Below, piece by piece: positions 54,885 through 64,000 of a stretch of DNA of 64,000 nucleotides. The position numbers were made by a program, and so were the translations under genes. This DNA comes from Phycisphaerae bacterium (GTDB lineage Bacteria > Planctomycetota > Phycisphaerae > Sedimentisphaerales > Anaerohalosphaeraceae), in contig JAAYCR010000018.1 of assembly GCA_012729675.1 (NCBI GenBank), positions 1 through 64,000 on the forward strand. Direction: 5' to 3'. Below the pieces are notes generated by a model that saw only the letters and a list, made by a program, of their open reading frames with translations, was not told where the DNA came from and did no database searches. Position 1 is the first letter of the stretch. Every line of letters starts with the position of its first letter.

Positions 54885-56249
54885 TTAGAGACGATAATAC
54901 TGTTCCCACTCTTTTCGTGGAGGCGGCCCGGCCAGCAAGGCATTGGCGGCCTTATCGTTGGTAATCTGTTTGCTTTCCGGGTCGAAGATCAGCGTCTCGG
55001 CGGTTTGCTGGGCAATTTTCCCCAAGCAGAACATCTGGGTCAGCGGCCCGGCCACATCCAGCGACGAACGGCATTCTTCCTGCCCCTTAACCGACAACAG
55101 GAAATTGATGTGATGATCTGATGCGTCCAGTGAGAGCCGGGGAAGATCGGGTTGCAGTTCGACGCGTTTACTTTCGGGAATAATCCGCAATGGGTCGTGG
55201 TGCGTACCGCCGTAAAACGTCAGATTTTTGGAATATATCAGCTTGCCGTTGGTCTGGAGACGGCGTCCTTCCAGCTCCGGCGGCGTTTCAGGGCGATTCT
55301 CCGTTCCATCGTACCAGAAGACTTCGACCGGGGGCTTGTCGCCGCGCGCGGGAAAGTCAAAACGAAGCGTCGTGGCCTGCGGGAAAATAAATTCACTGTG
55401 ACCGTCCACCCGCTCCGGCTCGACTTTTGTCGGCAACCCCAGATCGAGGAAGCGGTGAGCCGTATCCAGAATATGCGCCCCCCAGTCGCCCAACGCGCCG
55501 TTGCCGTAGTAGAACCAACTGCGCCACTCGGCCGGATGATACAAACGGCTGAACGGCTTCATTTCGAGGCCGGCATGCCAGAGGTCCCAATCCAGTGTTT
55601 GCGGCACCGGTTCGCCGTCGGGATAGCTTTCAATCTTCCAGCCATGCCATCGCCGCGGGCTGTTCATAAAGGCCACTACCCGGGTGACATCTTTAATGAT
55701 ACCGGCCTCCGTCCAAGCCTTAAATTGATGGTAATTGGCGCCGGAATGTCCCTGGTTGCCCATTTGTGCGACGACGTTATGCTTTTTCGCCGCCGCCATC
55801 AGAAGCTCACATTCCTGAAACGTATTGGCCAGCGGCTTTTCAATGTAGATATGCTTACCGAGGGCCATTGCCATCATCGCAATCGGAAAATGGGAATGAT
55901 CCGGCGTGCCGATGGTCACCGCGTCGATCTGGCTGCCCATTGCGTCGAACATCTTCCGGAAATCCTGAAATCGCCTGGCGTCGGGAAATTGTTCAAGTGT
56001 CTGAGCAGTCAATCGGCTTCCCATATCCACATCGCAGACCGCAACAACATTGGTATGTTCAGAGCCGCCGATGGCTCTTGCGATATCGCCGCCCCTGTTG
56101 CCAAGGCCCACACAGGCCAAGTTGATTTTCTCATTGGCCGATATTTTTTTGGCGTTGGCCAAACTCGCGCGCAGCAGAGACGGGCTAAGAGATACCGCCA
56201 CGGCACTTGACAAAAAAGCTCGACGATTCACATTATTGAAGCTGATCAT
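54885..56249 (-). CDS. Gfo/Idh/MocA-family oxidoreductase with twin-arginine signal
   Basis: This is an NAD(P)-dependent sugar oxidoreductase-type protein. The N-terminus NRRAFLSSAVAVSLSPSLL is a twin-arginine export signal. The Rossmann fold follows (ACVGLGNRGGDIARA), then the catalytic-site motif IYIEKPLA, with GNQGHSG and GALGDWGAHILD in the C-terminal domain. Exported members of this family are heavily expanded in planctomycetes and related bacteria and are linked to carbohydrate breakdown. AGGA lies 8 bases before the ATG. Substrate and cofactor are not predictable. Confidence 0.93.
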   Translation of the reverse strand: MISFNNVNRRAFLSSAVAVSLSPSLLRASLANAKKISANEKINLACVGLGNRGGDIARAIGGSEHTNVVAVCDVDMGSRLTAQTLEQFPDARRFQDFRKMFDAMGSQIDAVTIGTPDHSHFPIAMMAMALGKHIYIEKPLANTFQECELLMAAAKKHNVVAQMGNQGHSGANYHQFKAWTEAGIIKDVTRVVAFMNSPRRWHGWKIESYPDGEPVPQTLDWDLWHAGLEMKPFSRLYHPAEWRSWFYYGNGALGDWGAHILDTAHRFLDLGLPTKVEPERVDGHSEFIFPQATTLRFDFPARGDKPPVEVFWYDGTENRPETPPELEGRRLQTNGKLIYSKNLTFYGGTHHDPLRIIPESKRVELQPDLPRLSLDASDHHINFLLSVKGQEECRSSLDVAGPLTQMFCLGKIAQQTAETLIFDPESKQITNDKAANALLAGPPPRKEWEQYYRL

Positions 56250-56511
56250 TGTCGTGTTCCTGATTTCTGCGGTTCCAATTTATTTGAAGAGTACGGATAA
56301 TCAATATATGTTATGATCTTTTTCACGAGATCACGGTTCGTTTTTGAGTTCTTGAACGTCTATGTCTTTTATTAATTATTGATTACACATTTCCCACAAA
56401 AAATTATACCATCCGCCCGGCGGAATTCAATGCAAATATTGACAACGGTGGTTTTTTTATTCTGCGTGGACTTCGTGAAAAGCACTGTACAGTGTGTTTT
56501 TGACATTCGTT
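56250..56511. other. Spacer between the PBP4-like and oxidoreductase genes
   Basis: This AT-rich stretch of 262 bases contains the 12-base palindrome CACTGTACAGTG (56483-56494) just after the PBP4-like gene. It may form a weak hairpin. No gene is seen. Confidence 0.4.
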
Positions 56512-57900
56512 TTAGAAGGTTCCGTCGAAGATGGCCTTTGTGATGTCATTGATGGCGGTTCTGGTTTCGGAATTACCGCCTTCTGTCAGGATGGAAAAAA
56601 TGATGTCGCCGCGAAGGGTTCGACAGATGCCAGAGAAAGTGCGGACGTTGGCAATGTAACCGGTTTTGCCATTAATTTTGCCGCGGTAGGGGGGGTGCTG
56701 GAAGAATCGCTGGATCGTTCCGTCGTTTCCCGCCTCCGCTAAAGTTGCCAGATAGCGGTCGGCGTAGGGCTTTTGGTATATATCCTGCAGAACGGCGACG
56801 AGGACATTACAGGAGAGGCGGTTATTTCGGCTCAACCCGCTGCCGTCATCCAGCGTGAATTGTGCATCGTCCACACCGAGGGCATTCAGATAACGCTCAA
56901 CAAGCTTAAGACCGTGCGGCCATTCACCGTTGATGCGGCCTTGTGTGTGTTCAGCGGAGATGGTTTTAATCAGGCTTTCGGCGGCCAAGCCGAGGCTGTC
57001 TTTATTGCAACGGTCGAGAACATCCCAGATGGAATTCGAGAAGGTGTGCACTATCTTGAGGTCGGTTTCCTGTTGGATGTACTTCTGGACGATTTGACCG
57101 CTGATGGTGATGCCGGCATCTCGCAGATGCCGTACCAGCAGATTGGCAAACAGACCAGCAGGCCGTTCGATGGCCAAGTCAAAGCCGGCGGATTGATTGA
57201 GATTGCCGCGGATAGAGATGCGATTGGCCGTTGTGGTGCGATACCCGCCGATGGCGCTGTTGCCGCTGGTGATGAGTTGGAGTTGGTTGATAAGAGTCAG
57301 ATAGTTGTTGTCGGGATCCATTCGCAAAACGGCGGCGCTGGCCTGTCGGGAGGCGGTGATGCGAACGCAGTTGCGGTTGTAATTAAGGCCGCTGGTCTCA
57401 CAGGCATACCACTGATTAAGTTGGTCGGCGGGCCATGAGGGATGGACGCGGTTGAGATCGAAGAAAAAGCTGTCGATGATGACATCGTCGAAGCGGGTCA
57501 AACCACGATCTTTGAGCAGTTGGACGATGTGTTCAAATATCCAGCCGGGGTTGCGGTCGTGACGCTGGTCGATCTGTGGATCGCCGAGGACGGGATCACC
57601 GCCGCCGATAACGACAAGGTTATTGCCGAGAAGGGCGATGCGCGTCTTGAATTGGTAATCGGGGCCGAGATAATGCAGCGCCGATGCGGATGCGGTCAGC
57701 TTCATATTTGAGGCGGGAATCATCGGCTTATCCGCATTCCGGTGGTAGAGGATTTTGCCGTCGTCAGCGCTGACCGCAAGGATGGCAAACTCGGCGTTTC
57801 GCTGATCAGCGCGGTTGATGATCTGCGAAATCGTATTGGCTTGTCCCGCCGCGTAAAGCGACAGAAGAATAATGAGTTGTAGGTATATGCGTTTCATCAT
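56512..57900 (-). CDS. dacB: PBP4-like D-alanyl-D-alanine carboxypeptidase
   Basis: This is a periplasmic class C low-molecular-mass penicillin-binding protein acting on peptidoglycan peptides. A signal peptide (1-21) is followed by the SxxK box S64-N-M-K67 and the KTG box (412-414, NGKTGYIA). The second motif, normally SxN, reads S302-L-G304 in NKDSLGLAAES, so the Asn is replaced by Gly. The large insertion domain typical of DacB (about 95-260) is present, and 462 residues is normal. It lies 58 bases downstream of a response-regulator gene on the same strand and may be co-transcribed with it. Confidence 0.9.
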   Translation of the reverse strand: MMKRIYLQLIILLSLYAAGQANTISQIINRADQRNAEFAILAVSADDGKILYHRNADKPMIPASNMKLTASASALHYLGPDYQFKTRIALLGNNLVVIGGGDPVLGDPQIDQRHDRNPGWIFEHIVQLLKDRGLTRFDDVIIDSFFFDLNRVHPSWPADQLNQWYACETSGLNYNRNCVRITASRQASAAVLRMDPDNNYLTLINQLQLITSGNSAIGGYRTTTANRISIRGNLNQSAGFDLAIERPAGLFANLLVRHLRDAGITISGQIVQKYIQQETDLKIVHTFSNSIWDVLDRCNKDSLGLAAESLIKTISAEHTQGRINGEWPHGLKLVERYLNALGVDDAQFTLDDGSGLSRNNRLSCNVLVAVLQDIYQKPYADRYLATLAEAGNDGTIQRFFQHPPYRGKINGKTGYIANVRTFSGICRTLRGDIIFSILTEGGNSETRTAINDITKAIFDGTF

Positions 57901-57958
57901 GCGGATTTTTTAACATATTGCAGCGGGAGATTCAAGCCGAAGCCGAAAAAATTCAAAA

Positions 57959-58417
57959 TCAATTGAATTTTTTCGGGGCGATTTCGGGTATGGTTAGTCC
58001 CGGTGTGGTCAAAAAAGCGCCAAGCCGCTCCATTGTTTGCATAAATTTTTCATAGTTCGAGGGCTTGACGATGTAGCAATTACACCCGACTTGATAACAG
58101 TGATTGATCTCGCTCGGATCGTCGGTGGTGGTGAGCATAAAAATGGGAATTCTTTTAAGGATGGGATGGGATTTGATCTTTTCCAGCACCGTAATGCCGT
58201 CCATTTTCGGCATTCGAATATCCAGCAGAATCAGCAGAGGACGGTGGACATTTTCGGATTCGCAGGACTTGCCGTTTTCGAGAAAATCCAGAACTTCCTG
58301 GCCGTCTCGGAAACGCATGATGGGTTCGGTAATACCACCCCTGAGGAGATTACGCTCGATCAAAGCAAAATGCCCGTCATCATCTTCGGCAACCAGAATC
58401 ATTGCTTGGGTGCTCAT
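57959..58417 (-). CDS. Stand-alone response regulator receiver (Rcp1-like)
   Basis: This single receiver domain of 152 residues has no output domain. The acidic pair Asp12-Asp13, phosphoacceptor Asp66 (LLDIRMPKMDG), Thr97 region and Lys118 (YIVKPSN) are in place. The insertion before Asp66 and the C-terminal tail resemble Rcp1-type regulators that work with phytochrome-like or hybrid histidine kinases. AAAGGGC lies 8 bases before the ATG. No kinase is in the window. The next gene on the strand is the PBP4-like peptidase, but a functional link is only inferred. Confidence 0.92.
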   Translation of the reverse strand: MSTQAMILVAEDDDGHFALIERNLLRGGITEPIMRFRDGQEVLDFLENGKSCESENVHRPLLILLDIRMPKMDGITVLEKIKSHPILKRIPIFMLTTTDDPSEINHCYQVGCNCYIVKPSNYEKFMQTMERLGAFLTTPGLTIPEIAPKKFN

Positions 58418-58635
58418 ATCAAAGCCCTTTATTTTGTAGGATCGTTATGTTGCCTGATAAACGTTTCCTTGGAACAAGATATTGCATTTTTCGGCAAATT
58501 TCAATATCGATTATCAAACATTTTAGTAAAAAATATACAACGCTGAAAATAAACGATAAGTCATTTTTAATAAATGAATTATGTTTAATTCAAATAGGCG
58601 CATGAAAAAGTCTTGTTTTTCTTAAACAAGCCGTC
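58418..58635. other. Divergent spacer between the response regulator and pyrKD
   Basis: This AT-rich region contains no gene. The pyrKD promoter begins at 58636. Confidence 0.4.
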
Positions 58636-58664
58636 TTGACAGCGTCCGGCCAGACTGATATAGT
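58636..58664 (+). promoter_or_regulatory. Sigma70 promoter of pyrKD
   Basis: TTGACA (58636-58641), a 17-base spacer and TATAGT (58659-58664). Near consensus, it drives a leader of about 120 bases before pyrK. Confidence 0.8.
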
Positions 58665-58693
58665 CTAATCTGTAAGGGAGTGATAAAACGAGC

Positions 58694-58747
58694 ATGATTT
58701 TGTCGGCTTTCTTTGCCGTGGCGGGCTTCCGGAATGTCAGTGGATGA
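58694..58747 (+). CDS. Putative pyrKD leader peptide
   Basis: This 17-codon frame (MILSAFFAVAGFRNVSG) lies in the leader. It runs through the left arm of the attenuator hairpin and stops at TGA 58745-58747 inside the loop. The first codons contain U-rich runs (ATTTTG, CTTTCTTT). AAGGGAG lies about 14 bases before the ATG, rather far. The geometry resembles the pyrBI and pyrE leaders of enteric bacteria. Confidence 0.45.
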   Translation: MILSAFFAVAGFRNVSG

Positions 58748-58767
58748 ATGTTCCGGAAGCTTTTTTT
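58725..58767 (+). terminator. Intrinsic terminator in the pyrKD leader (attenuator)
   Basis: GCTTCCGGAA (58725-58734) pairs perfectly with TTCCGGAAGC (58751-58760), followed at once by seven T. It lies between a strong promoter and pyrK on the same strand, so read-through must be regulated. Confidence 0.78.
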
Positions 58768-58792
58768 ACATAAGTCCTTTAGGGAAAACACG

Positions 58793-59752
58793 ATGGAAAA
58801 TGGGGTCGCCGTCAGACATAAGGGGGTTTTCACGGCTGAGGTGTTGAGCAATCAGCAAATCCGCGAATGCTATTATCGCCTGAATCTAGTCTTGGACCCC
58901 ATCGGCAGCCGCTTTTTTGAGCATGTGGTGCCGGGCCAATTCCTTGAGATTGACCTGTCCGGGCTTTCGCTTCCGCCGGAGCGGCACATTCCCGCTGAAT
59001 TGCGCGATATTGCGGCCAGACAGGTGCTGTTACGCCGGCCGTTCAGCTTTTCAGATGTGGTGACGACCCCGACACAGGATGGACCGTGCGTAAAGCTGGA
59101 GATTGTGTATTGTGTGCTGGGGCCGGCGACTCTGCGAATGATGACGCTCAAGAGCGGCGATGTGCTGAGCCTGATCGGGCCGTTGGGCAACGGATTTAAG
59201 ATTTTCCAAACGCTCAAGCTGGCGGTGTTGATCGCCGGCGGGATGGGGGCACCGCCGCTGCTGCATCTGGGCGGGTATCTGCGACGGCATTTTCCGGCCG
59301 TGGAGACGATCTGCTTTGCGGGGGCCAGAAGCTGTGAGGATTTGCCGTTTACGCTGAAGATTGGCAATTTGACAGGGCTGGTGGTGGATGAGTTTGATAC
59401 GCTGGGGGTCGCCTCGCAGGTCGCCACGGACGACGGTTCGGCGGGGTTTAAGGGATTTGTGACTGATTGTGTACGGCACTGGCTGGAGAATCATACCATA
59501 AAGCCTGAAGAGACAATGATTTTTGCGTGCGGTCCGGAGCCGATGCTGGCCGGGGCGGCGCGGCTGGCGGCGGATTTCGGGCTGGCCTGCCAGGTGAGCA
59601 TGGAGCGGATGATGGCCTGCGGCATCGGGCTGTGCCAGAGCTGTGCGATTGAGGTCAACAAAGGCAAGGCCGACGAGACGGAATATAAGCTGTGCTGCAA
59701 GGATGGGCCGGTGTTTGACAGTCGAAACGTCATTTTTCAGGTGCAGCCATGA
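58793..59752 (+). CDS. pyrK: Dihydroorotate dehydrogenase electron-transfer subunit PyrK
   Basis: PyrK passes electrons from dihydroorotate dehydrogenase 1B to NAD+. The FAD barrel (VLLRRPFSFSDV), the nucleotide fold (VLIAGGMGAPPLLHL) and the C-terminal [2Fe-2S] site C-x4-C-x2-C plus Cys (MACGIGLCQSC, KLCCKDGPVFDS) are complete. The start is ATG 58793 with AGGGA at 7-base spacing; an earlier ATG at 58748 lies inside the attenuator hairpin and is poorly placed. The gene overlaps pyrD by 4 bases. It is preceded by a promoter, a leader ORF and a terminator. At 319 residues it is longer than Bacillus PyrK, mostly in the N-terminal barrel. Confidence 0.95.
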   Translation: MENGVAVRHKGVFTAEVLSNQQIRECYYRLNLVLDPIGSRFFEHVVPGQFLEIDLSGLSLPPERHIPAELRDIAARQVLLRRPFSFSDVVTTPTQDGPCVKLEIVYCVLGPATLRMMTLKSGDVLSLIGPLGNGFKIFQTLKLAVLIAGGMGAPPLLHLGGYLRRHFPAVETICFAGARSCEDLPFTLKIGNLTGLVVDEFDTLGVASQVATDDGSAGFKGFVTDCVRHWLENHTIKPEETMIFACGPEPMLAGAARLAADFGLACQVSMERMMACGIGLCQSCAIEVNKGKADETEYKLCCKDGPVFDSRNVIFQVQP

Positions 59753-60681
59753 CCGAGCAGATTGATTTGACGGTGGATTTTGCCGGCATTATGCTGGCCA
59801 ACCCGGTGCTGACGGCCTCCGGGACGTGCGGCTACGCCGATGAACTTACGGAGTTTATGGATGTGGCGGGTCTGGGGGGGGTGGTGACCAAGAGCATTAC
59901 CCTTGCGCCGCGCAAGGGCAATCCGACGCCGCGTATCGTCGAGACGGATGCGGGGATGCTTAACGCCATCGGGCTGGCCAATATCGGGCTGGAGCGGTTC
60001 GTCAGCGAAAAGATTCCGGTGCTCCAGCGGCTGGGGACGGCGGTGTTCGTCAATGTGGCCGGGCAGATGATCGAAGATTATGTCGCGGTGGCCGAGCGGC
60101 TGGCGCAGGAAAAGGTCGTTTCAGGGCTGGAACTGAACATCAGTTGTCCCAATGTCAAACAAGGCGGCATCAGTTTCGGCACAGATCCGACATTGATCCG
60201 TGAGATTATCGGCGCGGTCAAAAAAGTCTGCGGCGATAAGCCGCTGATTGTCAAGCTGACGCCGACGGTTACGGATATTAGTGCGACGGCGCGGGCGGCG
60301 GTCGAGGCCGGAGCCGATGCACTGAGCATGGTCAATACCTTCACGGCAATGGTCATCGACATCGAGACGCGGCGGCCCGTGCTGGCCAATCGAACGGGAG
60401 GTCTAAGCGGCCCGGCCATCAAGCCGATTGCCGTTTATCTGGTCAATCGTGTCTATCAGGAAGTCGCCAAACCGGCGGGCATCCCGATTCTCGGCGGCGG
60501 CGGCATCCGCAACGCGACCGACGCGGTCGAATTCATGATCGCCGGCGCTAGCGCAGTCACCATCGGCACGGCAACCTTCATCCAGCCCAATACCGCCCTG
60601 CACATTATCGACGGCATCCGGCAGTACTGCACACGTAAAGGCATCCGATCTGTCGCTGAACTGACCGGAACCCTGCGATAA
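59749..60681 (+). CDS. pyrD: Dihydroorotate dehydrogenase 1B catalytic subunit
   Basis: PyrD oxidises dihydroorotate to orotate in pyrimidine synthesis, using FMN. The class 1 catalytic Cys133 is in LELNISCPNVKQGG, marking the NAD-linked 1B form that needs PyrK. The FMN site reads PILGGGGIRNATDAVEFM. The length of 310 residues is normal. The ATG overlaps the pyrK stop (ATGA), so the subunits are made together. No other pyrimidine gene is in the window. Confidence 0.97.
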   Translation: MTEQIDLTVDFAGIMLANPVLTASGTCGYADELTEFMDVAGLGGVVTKSITLAPRKGNPTPRIVETDAGMLNAIGLANIGLERFVSEKIPVLQRLGTAVFVNVAGQMIEDYVAVAERLAQEKVVSGLELNISCPNVKQGGISFGTDPTLIREIIGAVKKVCGDKPLIVKLTPTVTDISATARAAVEAGADALSMVNTFTAMVIDIETRRPVLANRTGGLSGPAIKPIAVYLVNRVYQEVAKPAGIPILGGGGIRNATDAVEFMIAGASAVTIGTATFIQPNTALHIIDGIRQYCTRKGIRSVAELTGTLR

Positions 60682-60866
60682 ACTTCATACTTCCTTTCGA
60701 CTATTTGGTTCTGAAACTTCTCTCCTTACAGTACCACGCCCTATCGGGCCCTCGCTTGTGTTAAAACCAATCGCACCCAAAAAATGCGCGCATTTTGATT
60801 TTGCACTTGCGCCATCCTGAATAGACGTCATAATAGGCACACCAAGGTCAATTTGAGGAGTCTATT
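60682..60866. other. Spacer before the transposase remnant
   Basis: This stretch contains the 16-base palindrome AAAATGCGCGCATTTT (60781-60796). No pyrD terminator is evident. The sequence before the transposase may hold an inverted-repeat end, but none was identified. Confidence 0.4.
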
Positions 60867-61506
60867 ATGAAGGTCGAACTGTATCACACAAGCACCGAAC
60901 TGAAGCGATTGTTTCGCCAAGAAAAGGGTATTCGCCTGGCTACCCGCGTTCGGGCGGTCTATCTGGCCCTGAAGCAGAAAACGGCACCGGAGATTGCCAC
61001 GTTGCTGGGCTACAGCCGCCGACAGGTTCAGGACTGGATATATGCTTACAACCAAAAGGGCCTGGACGGCTTAAAGGATGCGCCGGTCGAGGCACACGCG
61101 GCAAGCTGAATACCGATCAGCTCCAATGGCTCCGGCAGCGAATCGATGAAGTTCCGCGTCCCGAAGACGGCGTCTGTGTCCTGCGCGGCAAGGAGATTCA
61201 GCAGATTGTTCGTCAGCAGTTCAAGGTCCATTACAGCCTCAGTGCCATCTATAAACTATTGCACCGGTTGGGCTACAGTAATGTCTCCTCACGGCCGGAA
61301 CACCCCAAAGGTGATCCGCAGAGGCGTGAAACCTTTAAAAAAAAGTCTGTGATCAGATCCGGCAATTCCGTCTTGATCATCCTGGGATAAAGGTCCAGGT
61401 GTGGTTTCAGGATGAGGCCAGATTCGGGCAGCAGGGTACACTAAGCCGGCAATGGGCCTTAAAGGGGGACAACCGCAGCGTGGCACGCCATCTGTCTAAA
61501 ACCTGA
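60867..61506 (+). pseudogene. Decayed IS630-family transposase
   Basis: Three reading frames in series make up a truncated transposase. Frame 1 (60867-61109) is the N-terminal helix-turn-helix (EIATLLGYSRRQVQDWIYAY). After a shift near 61085-61100 comes WLRQRIDEVPRPEDGVC with SLSAIYKLLHRLGYS. A second shift at a run of eight A (near 61338) leads to the start of the DDE domain (VQVWFQDEARFGQQGTL), which ends at a stop at 61506. The rest of the DDE domain is missing. The shifts could be mutations; the A-run could also be a slippery site in the ancestral element. No terminal inverted repeats were recognised. Confidence 0.88.
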
Positions 61507-61725
61507 AAAAATCAAATCCATCTGCCGGGCAAAATACATTGAAAGCGCATTTATTTAGTGGGATAGGTATAAGTTCCTCGCCTTTATAGGGGGGGGATTG
61601 GGCGGGCGGCCATTGTCGTGTGAATGTGTCGTTAATTCAATAGGATTATGGCGTCTTTACATTTTGTGGGATTGGGGGTAAAATTCCGCTTGTCGAATGA
61701 CGATATTTTAACGATGGATGGAATG

Positions 61726-62034
61726 ATGGCAAATTCTGATATATTACGGTTGTTGTATGACTATTTCCCGACCGCGGTGAATACGGGGCAGTGTCTGGTG
61801 TTTATCAGCGAGGAGTCGAAGGTCGAGTTGTGGGAGCATCGCAACACGTCTTTCGGGCTGCTCAAGCAAACGACTCCGGGGATACGGGTGAAAATCTATA
61901 AAAAGACGCTTAACGGGGATTTTGTGCAGGGACATTATCAGGATTTTCAACTGGACTCGCTCAACGAACTGGCCCAGCAGGTCGAACGTTATATACAGAA
62001 TGCTGTCGGGCAGAATATCCGTGAAAACGTGTGA
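61726..62034 (+). CDS. Small hypothetical protein upstream of yggU
   Basis: This is a protein of about 102 residues (MANSDILRLLYDYFPTAV start) with an alternating strand and helix pattern (QCLVFISEESKVELWEH, GIRVKIYKKTLNG, LNELAQQVERYI). I do not recognise a family. Several in-frame starts are possible (61648, 61714, 61723, 61726); 61726 has GGA at 7-base spacing. Its end overlaps the yggU start by 14 bases, so it is translated together with yggU and the TPR gene. Confidence 0.65.
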   Translation: MANSDILRLLYDYFPTAVNTGQCLVFISEESKVELWEHRNTSFGLLKQTTPGIRVKIYKKTLNGDFVQGHYQDFQLDSLNELAQQVERYIQNAVGQNIRENV

Positions 62035-62299
62035 GTTCACCGTCAAGGTTGTTCCGGGCAGCAGCCGCACGGCGTATTGCGGGATGTATGGCGGGATGGT
62101 CAAGATCAAAGTGGCCGCGCCGCCGGAAAAGGGCAAGGCCAACACGGCGTTGGTCGATTATCTGGCCGGTGTGCTGGCGGTTAAGAAAACTGCGGTGAGC
62201 ATCGTATCGGGGCAGACCAGCCCGGTGAAACAGATTAGCGTCGAAGGGATTGAGAGCGACTATGTTAAAGCGTGTTTTGAGCGTTTTCAGATGGCCTGA
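62021..62299 (+). CDS. yggU: YggU/DUF167 family protein
   Basis: This small conserved protein (92 residues) has the DUF167 pattern: FTVKVVPGSSRTAY, IKVAAPPEKGKANTALVDYLA, and VSIVSGQTSPVKQISVEG. Its function is unknown in all bacteria. The start is GTG 62021 inside the end of the upstream gene, without a clear Shine-Dalgarno, so translation probably depends on coupling. Its 3' end overlaps the next gene by 38 bases. Confidence 0.85.
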   Translation: MKTCEFTVKVVPGSSRTAYCGMYGGMVKIKVAAPPEKGKANTALVDYLAGVLAVKKTAVSIVSGQTSPVKQISVEGIESDYVKACFERFQMA

Positions 62300-63992
62300 C
62301 GCGATACGGCCGATGACGGCGGCACTGGTGTTGTCGGTCCTGTTGCTGGCGACGGCGCAGGCCTCGGCGGCGCTGGCCAACCAGAATAAACGCGGCCTGA
62401 GAGCCTTCACCATCGACGGCGTGCTGCGGCTGGTGGAAGATGAGATCGATATGGGCACCGCGGCGCTGATTTTGTCGCGGGACTGGGGCACGACGCAGAC
62501 GCTGCATTCGTATCGGGGCAGGATCGACGATATGGCCGAGGAAATTCTCAAGACCCTCAGAGAAAAACGCCTGCCGGTCGATTATCGCGCTTTGCCGGTG
62601 ATCAATGCGTATCTGTTTGAGGAGATGGGGTTTCGGGCGGTCGAGACGGCTGACGACCCGGAGGATTTGTTTTTGCACGTCGTCCTTGACCGCAAGCGGG
62701 GGTATTGCCTGAGCCTGTCGATATTGTATCTGGCGATTGCCGAGCGGCTGGGCCTGCCGATGTTCGGGGTGGTCGTACCGGGGCATTTTTTTGTGCGGTA
62801 CGACGACGGGCGGCAGCAGTTCAACGTGGAGACCACCTCGAAGGGGGCGATTGTTCCGGATTCACACTATATCGAAAAGTTCAAGCCACCGACCCGTCCG
62901 CTAAGCCTGTATATGAAGAACCTCACGCAGCGGCAGACGCTGGGCTGCTTTTTTAACAATCTGGGCAACAGCTACAGTCAGGTGGGGATGCTGGATGAAG
63001 CGTTTGCCGCGTTGGAGCGGGCGGTGCAGTTGGCTCCTCAACTGGCCGAGGCGCGCACCAATCTGGGCAATATGTACCTCCGCCGCAAGATGCATCATCG
63101 GGCGCTGGCCGAGTATGAGCAGGCCATGGCGCTATTAGGGCAGGATGTGATAACCTTGAACAATATGGGCACGGCGTATCTGGAGTTGAAGGACTATCAA
63201 AAGGCCGAATCAAGCCTTCGGGCGGCGCTGAACATTGACGGCGAATATGTTGAGGCGTGGCGAAATCTGGGGCTGGTGTATCTGGCGCAGGGAGAAACCG
63301 AAAAGGCCGTTACTCAGGTCAAAACGGCGATTTCTATTAAGCCGCGCGAGGCGGACGGGTATTTGCTGCTGGGGCAGATTTATCGGCAGGCCGACCAGAT
63401 GGACGCGGCGCAACAGCAATTTGAGATGGCGCTGACGATGGACGATGCTCTTGTCGAGGCGCGCATGGGACTGGGGGCGATTCAACTGGAGCGAGGGGCG
63501 ACGCAGCAGGCGATTGCGCAGTTTCAGGCGGTTTTGACGTGCTCACCTGTGAATGCGCTGGCTTATTTCGGCATGGCGCAGGCCTATCACGCCCAGGGAC
63601 AGACCGAAGAGGAGATTCGGGCGTATGAACAGGCACTGAGGATCGAGCCGGGTATGACGGCGGCACTTCAGAATCTGGGGAACGCCCAGATGAGGATGGA
63701 ACGATTTGAGAAGGCCGCCGACCTGTATGAGCGAGCGATTGAAAGCGATCCGGGCAATGCGGCCTTGTATTACAATCTGGGCGTTGCGCTGGCCCGGCTG
63801 AACCGGCATGACGCGGCTGTTGAGACCTTCCAAAAAGCGATTGTGCTTGAACCGCGCAACGGGGCGGCGTATAATGGAATGGCGATATCGTATTATCGGC
63901 TTGAAGACTATGCACAGGCGTATGCAGCCGCCGTCAAGGCCAAATCGCTCGGCGTTGAGGTGCAAGACGCGTTGCTGCAAAACAAACGTTAA
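62262..63992 (+). CDS. Transglutaminase-like/TPR repeat protein
   Basis: A signal sequence or N-terminal membrane helix (about 15-40, ending AQASAAL) is followed by a transglutaminase-like region of the SirB1 type (about 40-210; Cys in KRGYCLSLSILYLAIAERL and His in VVVPGHFFVRYDDG). Then come about nine TPR units from residue 230 to the end (LGNSYSQVGMLDEAFAALE, LGNMYLRRKMHHRALAEYE and so on). The start ATG 62262 lies inside yggU. Such proteins may act as envelope scaffolds or proteases; the specific role is unknown. The stop codon lies 8 bases before the window end. Confidence 0.85.
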   Translation: MLKRVLSVFRWPDAIRPMTAALVLSVLLLATAQASAALANQNKRGLRAFTIDGVLRLVEDEIDMGTAALILSRDWGTTQTLHSYRGRIDDMAEEILKTLREKRLPVDYRALPVINAYLFEEMGFRAVETADDPEDLFLHVVLDRKRGYCLSLSILYLAIAERLGLPMFGVVVPGHFFVRYDDGRQQFNVETTSKGAIVPDSHYIEKFKPPTRPLSLYMKNLTQRQTLGCFFNNLGNSYSQVGMLDEAFAALERAVQLAPQLAEARTNLGNMYLRRKMHHRALAEYEQAMALLGQDVITLNNMGTAYLELKDYQKAESSLRAALNIDGEYVEAWRNLGLVYLAQGETEKAVTQVKTAISIKPREADGYLLLGQIYRQADQMDAAQQQFEMALTMDDALVEARMGLGAIQLERGATQQAIAQFQAVLTCSPVNALAYFGMAQAYHAQGQTEEEIRAYEQALRIEPGMTAALQNLGNAQMRMERFEKAADLYERAIESDPGNAALYYNLGVALARLNRHDAAVETFQKAIVLEPRNGAAYNGMAISYYRLEDYAQAYAAAVKAKSLGVEVQDALLQNKR

Positions 63993-64000
63993 CCCTAATG

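Follow-up and report, generated by a model that had tools for sequence, protein, structure and literature searches.

UTP-sensitive attenuators, as known from the enteric pyrBI and pyrE, consist of a promoter, a U-rich stretch and a terminator placed ahead of a pyrimidine gene. In E. coli, the small RNA SgrS has its own promoter and its own intrinsic terminator, and setA is co-transcribed with it via read-through of this terminator (PMC6582626).

The stretch of DNA analysed here, referred to as the window, consists of the first 64,000 nucleotides of contig JAAYCR010000018.1 of a Phycisphaerae bacterium. It carries a pyrK-pyrD pair, the leader of which (58636-58792) was assigned to the first type, i.e. 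a leader-peptide attenuator, by a first-pass annotation. When this leader is compared with those of its relatives, the conserved entity is, as far as the alignments go, an RNA and neither a peptide nor a pyr-specific site. In the class Phycisphaerae, the element is probably a gene for a non-coding RNA, present in single copy; at this locus, the RNA would measure about 95-100 nt.

Organisation of the pyrK-pyrD leader

All the features described below lie on the forward strand. A sigma-70-type promoter (58636-58664), matching the consensus at 11 of 12 positions, is formed by TTGACA (58636-58641) and TATAGT (58659-58664), separated by a 17-nt spacer. The promoter scan gave it as the best promoter-like site of the region 56000-64000, and found no second promoter between 58664 and 58793 at the window locus. 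Transcription would start at about 58670-58672, and the RNA would thus begin with a 5' part (58671-58703) whose sequence is not kept among relatives. It is followed by hairpin P1 (58704-58718), in which CGGC (58704-58707) pairs with GCCG (58715-58718) around the U-rich loop UUUCUUU, and by the near-invariant GCCGUGGC (GCCGTGGC in DNA; 58715-58722), made up of the 3' strand of P1 and an unpaired UGGC linker. Hairpin P2 (58725-58760), an intrinsic-terminator stem of 13 pairs, has its arms at 58725-58737 and 58748-58760 and its loop, CAGUGGAUGA, at 58738-58747; the core of this stem is a perfect 10-bp helix (GCTTCCGGAA/TTCCGGAAGC), which wobbles extend to 13 pairs. The T7 tract at 58761-58767, a feature found in nearly all relatives, would provide the 3' end of the RNA if transcription terminates there. 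As a whole, the 98-nt leader folds better than its shuffled versions (z of -3.2), with one of 200 shuffles being equally good.

Concerning the downstream genes, pyrK (58793-59752) codes for a dihydroorotate dehydrogenase electron transfer subunit, its best NCBIfam families matching at E 1e-38, which is under the curated cut-off. The start of pyrD (59749-60681) overlaps the end of pyrK, and its product belongs to the class 1B dihydroorotate dehydrogenases (NF005574, 400.7 bits vs. a cut-off of 269).

Two side observations concern the flanks. Just 5' of the -35 box, at about 58605-58625, AAAAAGTCTTGTTNTTCTT is kept in three congeners (loci L003 and L004 among them), and this block is a possible regulator or UP site. 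On the 3' side of pyrD, an 80-aa frame followed by broken frames (60867-61470) looks like the remnant of an IS630-type transposase, as judged from inspection of the sequence and its translation only.

Conservation of the fold and sequence

Using PyrK as a query, the regions upstream of pyrK were fetched from members of the genus, the family and the order. A block of 65 nt recurs in 38 other loci of this set, with the order CGGC, U-rich loop, GCCGUGGC, two to three free bases, a hairpin of 12-13 pairs and a T-tract. Among congeners, the block is almost identical and the flanks are divergent. The hairpin to which the first-pass annotation had drawn attention is indeed conserved, but conservation extends beyond it, to P1 and GCCGTGGC (58715-58722). 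Likewise, the U-rich stretch is present as described, but it corresponds to the loop of P1.

In order members, nearly all cells are paired, and two-sided changes in P2 occur at the lower and upper ends of the stem; at one locus (L032), the P2 stem is rebuilt as CTTGGCGGAA/TTTCGCCAAG. At the class level (n = 46 sequences), two-sided changes are found at 10 of the 13 P2 pairs, with 97.9% of the cells paired. The cells with two-sided changes amount to 86, vs. 24.6 in shuffles, none of the 500 shuffles reaching 86, and the percentage of paired cells is 97.5% vs. 29-51% when the partner is slid. As for P1, pairing is kept in 100% of the cells in order members and in 96% class-wide, with changes that are mostly absent or one-sided.

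Across the class, P1, GCCGUGGC and the P2 base stay constant, and the P1 loop and the upper part of P2 vary. Identity within GCCGUGGC is 98-100% per position over about 129 distinct elements, a value partly built in since the set was collected with GCCGUGGC as an anchor, which the model-based searches did not require. The U-rich character of the P1 loop and the U-tail are likewise conserved. In family f5 (L082 and L084-L089), an extra hairpin is inserted in the P1 loop, GCCGUGGC and the P2 base being kept; judging from these sequences, the P1 loop tolerates a large insertion. The P2 loop reads (N)GUGGAUGA in all but one of the 38 order loci; it is conserved inside the order and variable elsewhere in the class. 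A CsrA sponge acting via the GGA of the order's P2 loop was also considered and rejected, as this GGA proved, by inspection, to be unconserved class-wide.

A promoter matching at least 10 of the 12 consensus positions was found upstream of 107 of the 125 distinct elements, vs. 3.6% of shuffles, the median distance from the -10 box to GCCGTGG being 66 nt. The element combines three features expected of a small RNA gene, namely a promoter at a typical distance, a covarying structure ending in an intrinsic terminator, and independence from one particular downstream gene.

Distribution of the element

A covariance model built from order members (R1) gave matches in 61 of the 161 order genomes and 140 of the 298 class genomes, in essence a single match each, with a few of the weakest matches being noise. 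A class-wide model built later (R2) matched 151 of the 297 class genomes and 116 of the 214 genera, a presence far beyond chance. One copy was found in 150 of these 151 genomes, and a second match in one genome only. The genomes searched are mostly metagenome assemblies. In families f4 and f7, which belong to the same order, a search with the class model, run up to E 1, gave no significant copy, and weak model matches in G118, G083 and G104 were not accepted.

When the phylum was scanned, only class members were retrieved, plus one false positive: the match in G574, the sole one outside the class, is an ordinary terminator with no adjacent GCCGUGGC. When 84,980 species genomes were scanned with an exact pattern, 87 stretches matched. 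The titles listed are those of planctomycetes, mostly Phycisphaerae, Phycisphaerales or Sedimentisphaerales, with a few records labelled otherwise (one "bacterium", one Blastopirellula and one Kuenenia). The Blastopirellula and Kuenenia records are taken as mislabelled bins, since their contigs match order members found in the searches.

With respect to described RNA families, Rfam 15 gave no match at the gathering score for the window element and eight relatives, the best sub-threshold match reaching 16 bits. Identity with 6S RNA (RF00013) was rejected: a separate 6S RNA is present in the window genome and in 12 of the 14 genomes tested. A literature search that scarcely covered subscription journals brought up no previous report of a small RNA conserved in Phycisphaerae.

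Genomic context and association with pyrK

The gene directly downstream of the element, on the same strand, is pyrK in 78 of the 109 fetched loci (about 100 of which are distinct), and some of the non-pyrK loci stop at contig ends. Between pairs of loci, a homologous gene is shared on the downstream side in 61% of the cases and on the upstream side in 10%, so that, in most lineages, the RNA behaves together with pyrK like a single transcription unit. Over the 78 loci, the median distance between the T-tract and the PyrK homology is about 45 nt. Since this gap is mostly too short to accommodate a promoter for pyrK, and none was found here, pyrK-pyrD are probably expressed by read-through of the P2 terminator. 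As a side observation, family f2 (L029, L034 and L040) has a second TTGACA and a TATAAT-like box, with an unusually long spacing of about 20 nt, between the T-tract and pyrK; these boxes may be a promoter of pyrK's own, giving a nearly leaderless transcript.

About twenty loci have something other than pyrK downstream. The same-direction neighbours are a DegT aminotransferase, a HAD hydrolase and lysS, in one family each. In at least five loci, the element is followed, after 6-50 nt, by a convergent gene that Pfam assigns clearly: CstA (L119), an O-methyltransferase (L120), a response regulator with Hpt (L126), a zinc dehydrogenase (L142) and PHO4 (L153). The promoter is retained upstream of most pyrK-less loci. 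Among eight genomes that were searched for PyrK because their element does not adjoin pyrK, PyrK is encoded elsewhere in five; in the other three, no PyrK match was obtained at E 1e-15, and the RNA is still present.

Interpretation of the element

We consider it likely that the element is the gene of a trans-acting small RNA and that pyrK-pyrD are a read-through passenger in most lineages. The conserved fold and its covariation, the single copy, the conserved promoter and terminator, the retention of the RNA at pyrK-less loci and the lack of a conserved frame or peptide all count in favour of this reading. RNA polymerase would start from the 58636-58664 promoter, and the transcript would comprise the short variable 5' part, P1, GCCGUGGC and P2, with its end at the U7 tract. 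Once released, this RNA would be the conserved product and would act away from its own locus, contact being made most likely via GCCGUGGC and the surrounding fold, by base pairing or protein binding; GCCGUGGC is, on the strength of its conservation, likely a functional site. Some polymerases would pass P2 into pyrK-pyrD, so that, in most lineages, the promoter of the RNA would also yield pyrK, as the sgrS promoter yields setA. Three points count against this small RNA: GCCGUGGC is short as a pairing seed, no match to the Hfq family was found in 14 class genomes (G000 included), and families f4 and f7 are without a significant match. In addition, the role in trans has against it that about three quarters of the loci precede pyrK and that neighbours are shared far more often downstream than upstream (61% vs. 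10%), both of which are easier to reconcile with a role in cis, or with a common transcription unit, than with action purely in trans.

A cis-acting attenuator or riboswitch of pyrK-pyrD, in which a ligand or protein on P1, GCCGUGGC and P2 would set the rate of termination at P2, is the main rival reading, conceivable but rather doubtful. The candidates would be a pyrimidine, orotate, a flavin or a protein, and the pyrK-less copies would either control other genes or be relics. The pyrK association just mentioned, which extends across many families, speaks for such a device, as do the short spacing, with which pyrK is likely reached by read-through, a conservation that exceeds what termination needs, and the other same-direction genes (DegT, HAD and lysS) that sometimes follow the element. 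However, intact promoter-bearing copies lie before convergent genes at L119, L120, L126, L142 and L153, and a copy is retained where the PyrK search gave no match. Moreover, no alternative antiterminator pairing or aptamer fold was seen, the 5' part carries no enriched complement of GCCGUGGC, and its pairing with GCCGUGGC or GUGGAUGA is in no clear excess over shuffles.

An unlikely variant would give a class-wide RNA two jobs, those of a trans-acting small RNA and of a regulated switch residing in its terminator. The choice between stopping, which yields the small RNA, and reading through, which yields the pyrK-pyrD mRNA, would then link pyrimidine synthesis or the redox state to a regulatory RNA of global reach, via a ligand or protein at P1-GCCGUGGC-P2.

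Leader-peptide control of UTP-sensitive attenuation, as in the enteric pyrBI and pyrE, is very improbable. Within the window, its geometry is real: the near-consensus promoter, the 17-codon frame, the 10-bp hairpin, the seven T and pyrK are all found where the first-pass annotation had placed them, with a U-rich stretch before the terminator. The frame (58694-58747) indeed runs from an ATG at 58694 across the left arm and stops inside the hairpin loop (TGA at 58745-58747). As regards the distant Shine-Dalgarno, given by the annotation as the weak point, the sole purine-rich block 5' of the frame is AAGGGAG, about 12 nt away. In several close relatives, a frame could be read in the same phase, often from a GTG or TTG, and a recent local use of translation in some of them is conceivable; across the relatives, however, no frame is conserved.

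Indeed, the ATG is absent from the two nearest congeners, relatives have no conserved ribosome-binding site, and neither the start codon, nor the reading frame, nor a codon-length spacing is conserved, the P1 loop inside the element varying by 1-3 nt. The 17-codon frame is thus judged not to be a gene. Stop-free frames enter the hairpin in all three phases (22, 24 and 17), and ATG frames reaching from the predicted start site into the P2 left arm are present in 56 of 115 leaders (49%) vs. 37% when the 5' part is shuffled; adding GTG and TTG starts makes this excess no larger. The alignment of relatives therefore keeps the hairpin but not the short frame, which, as far as the frame goes, is an outcome that the annotation had named as refuting its proposal; the U-rich loop and terminator are kept even in the absence of pyrK. 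UTP-sensitive control of pyrK is not the conserved purpose of the RNA either, since about twenty loci have kept the RNA with no pyrK following it, among them those before convergent genes. What stands of the earlier proposal is a terminator-like hairpin between promoter and pyrK, upon the passing of which pyrK expression should depend; its control by a leader peptide does not stand. This case calls for caution, as a leader-peptide geometry that was persuasive in a single genome was not upheld by comparison.

A PyrR attenuator is hardly credible. In it, PyrR would bind the P2 loop, which in the order reads CNGUGGAUGA and is weakly like the PyrR consensus loop. In its favour, the order's loop partly resembles CNGNG and a PyrR-family gene adjoins pyrB in the window genome and most relatives. 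Against it, the PyrR leader family (RF00515) has no match in the window, where the annotation had likewise recognised no PyrR-type site, and a search of 11 genomes gave no RF00515 match that exceeded the cut-off; the P2 loop is variable across the class, PyrR genes also occur in element-less families, and in two element-bearing genomes no PyrR match passes the cut-off. As a separate observation, the PyrR-family gene of L237 (G000 C90:40500-45500) is followed by pyrB, with no recognisable PyrR leader upstream, and likewise in relatives; the PyrR-family protein may act solely as an enzyme.

Comparison with known systems

Given its single copy, its conservation from promoter to terminator and its presence in about half of the sampled genera, the element probably does something basic. 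It offers a precise target for deletion and RNA-partner work in bacteria where the Hfq search found none, and the occurrence of the same RNA with and without pyrK is a natural comparison for asking how an attenuator arises from the terminator of a small RNA.

Like 6S RNA, the element is conserved, single-copy and small, but its size and fold differ and the 6S locus is a separate one. With the PyrR leader, it has in common a terminator-type leader before a pyr gene and a PyrR-like gene in the genome, but it gives no match over the cut-off for this family, and its P2 loop is non-consensus and variable in the class. It resembles the pyrBI and pyrE attenuators in having a promoter, a U-rich stretch and a terminator before a pyrimidine gene, whereas it has no conserved translated leader, its RNA sequence and fold are conserved, and it is kept without any pyr gene. 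As in SgrS-setA, the element has a promoter and a terminator, and the downstream gene would, by analogy, be reached by read-through; in contrast, SgrS is Hfq-dependent, no Hfq was found in the genomes searched here, and the two RNAs are unrelated in sequence and fold.
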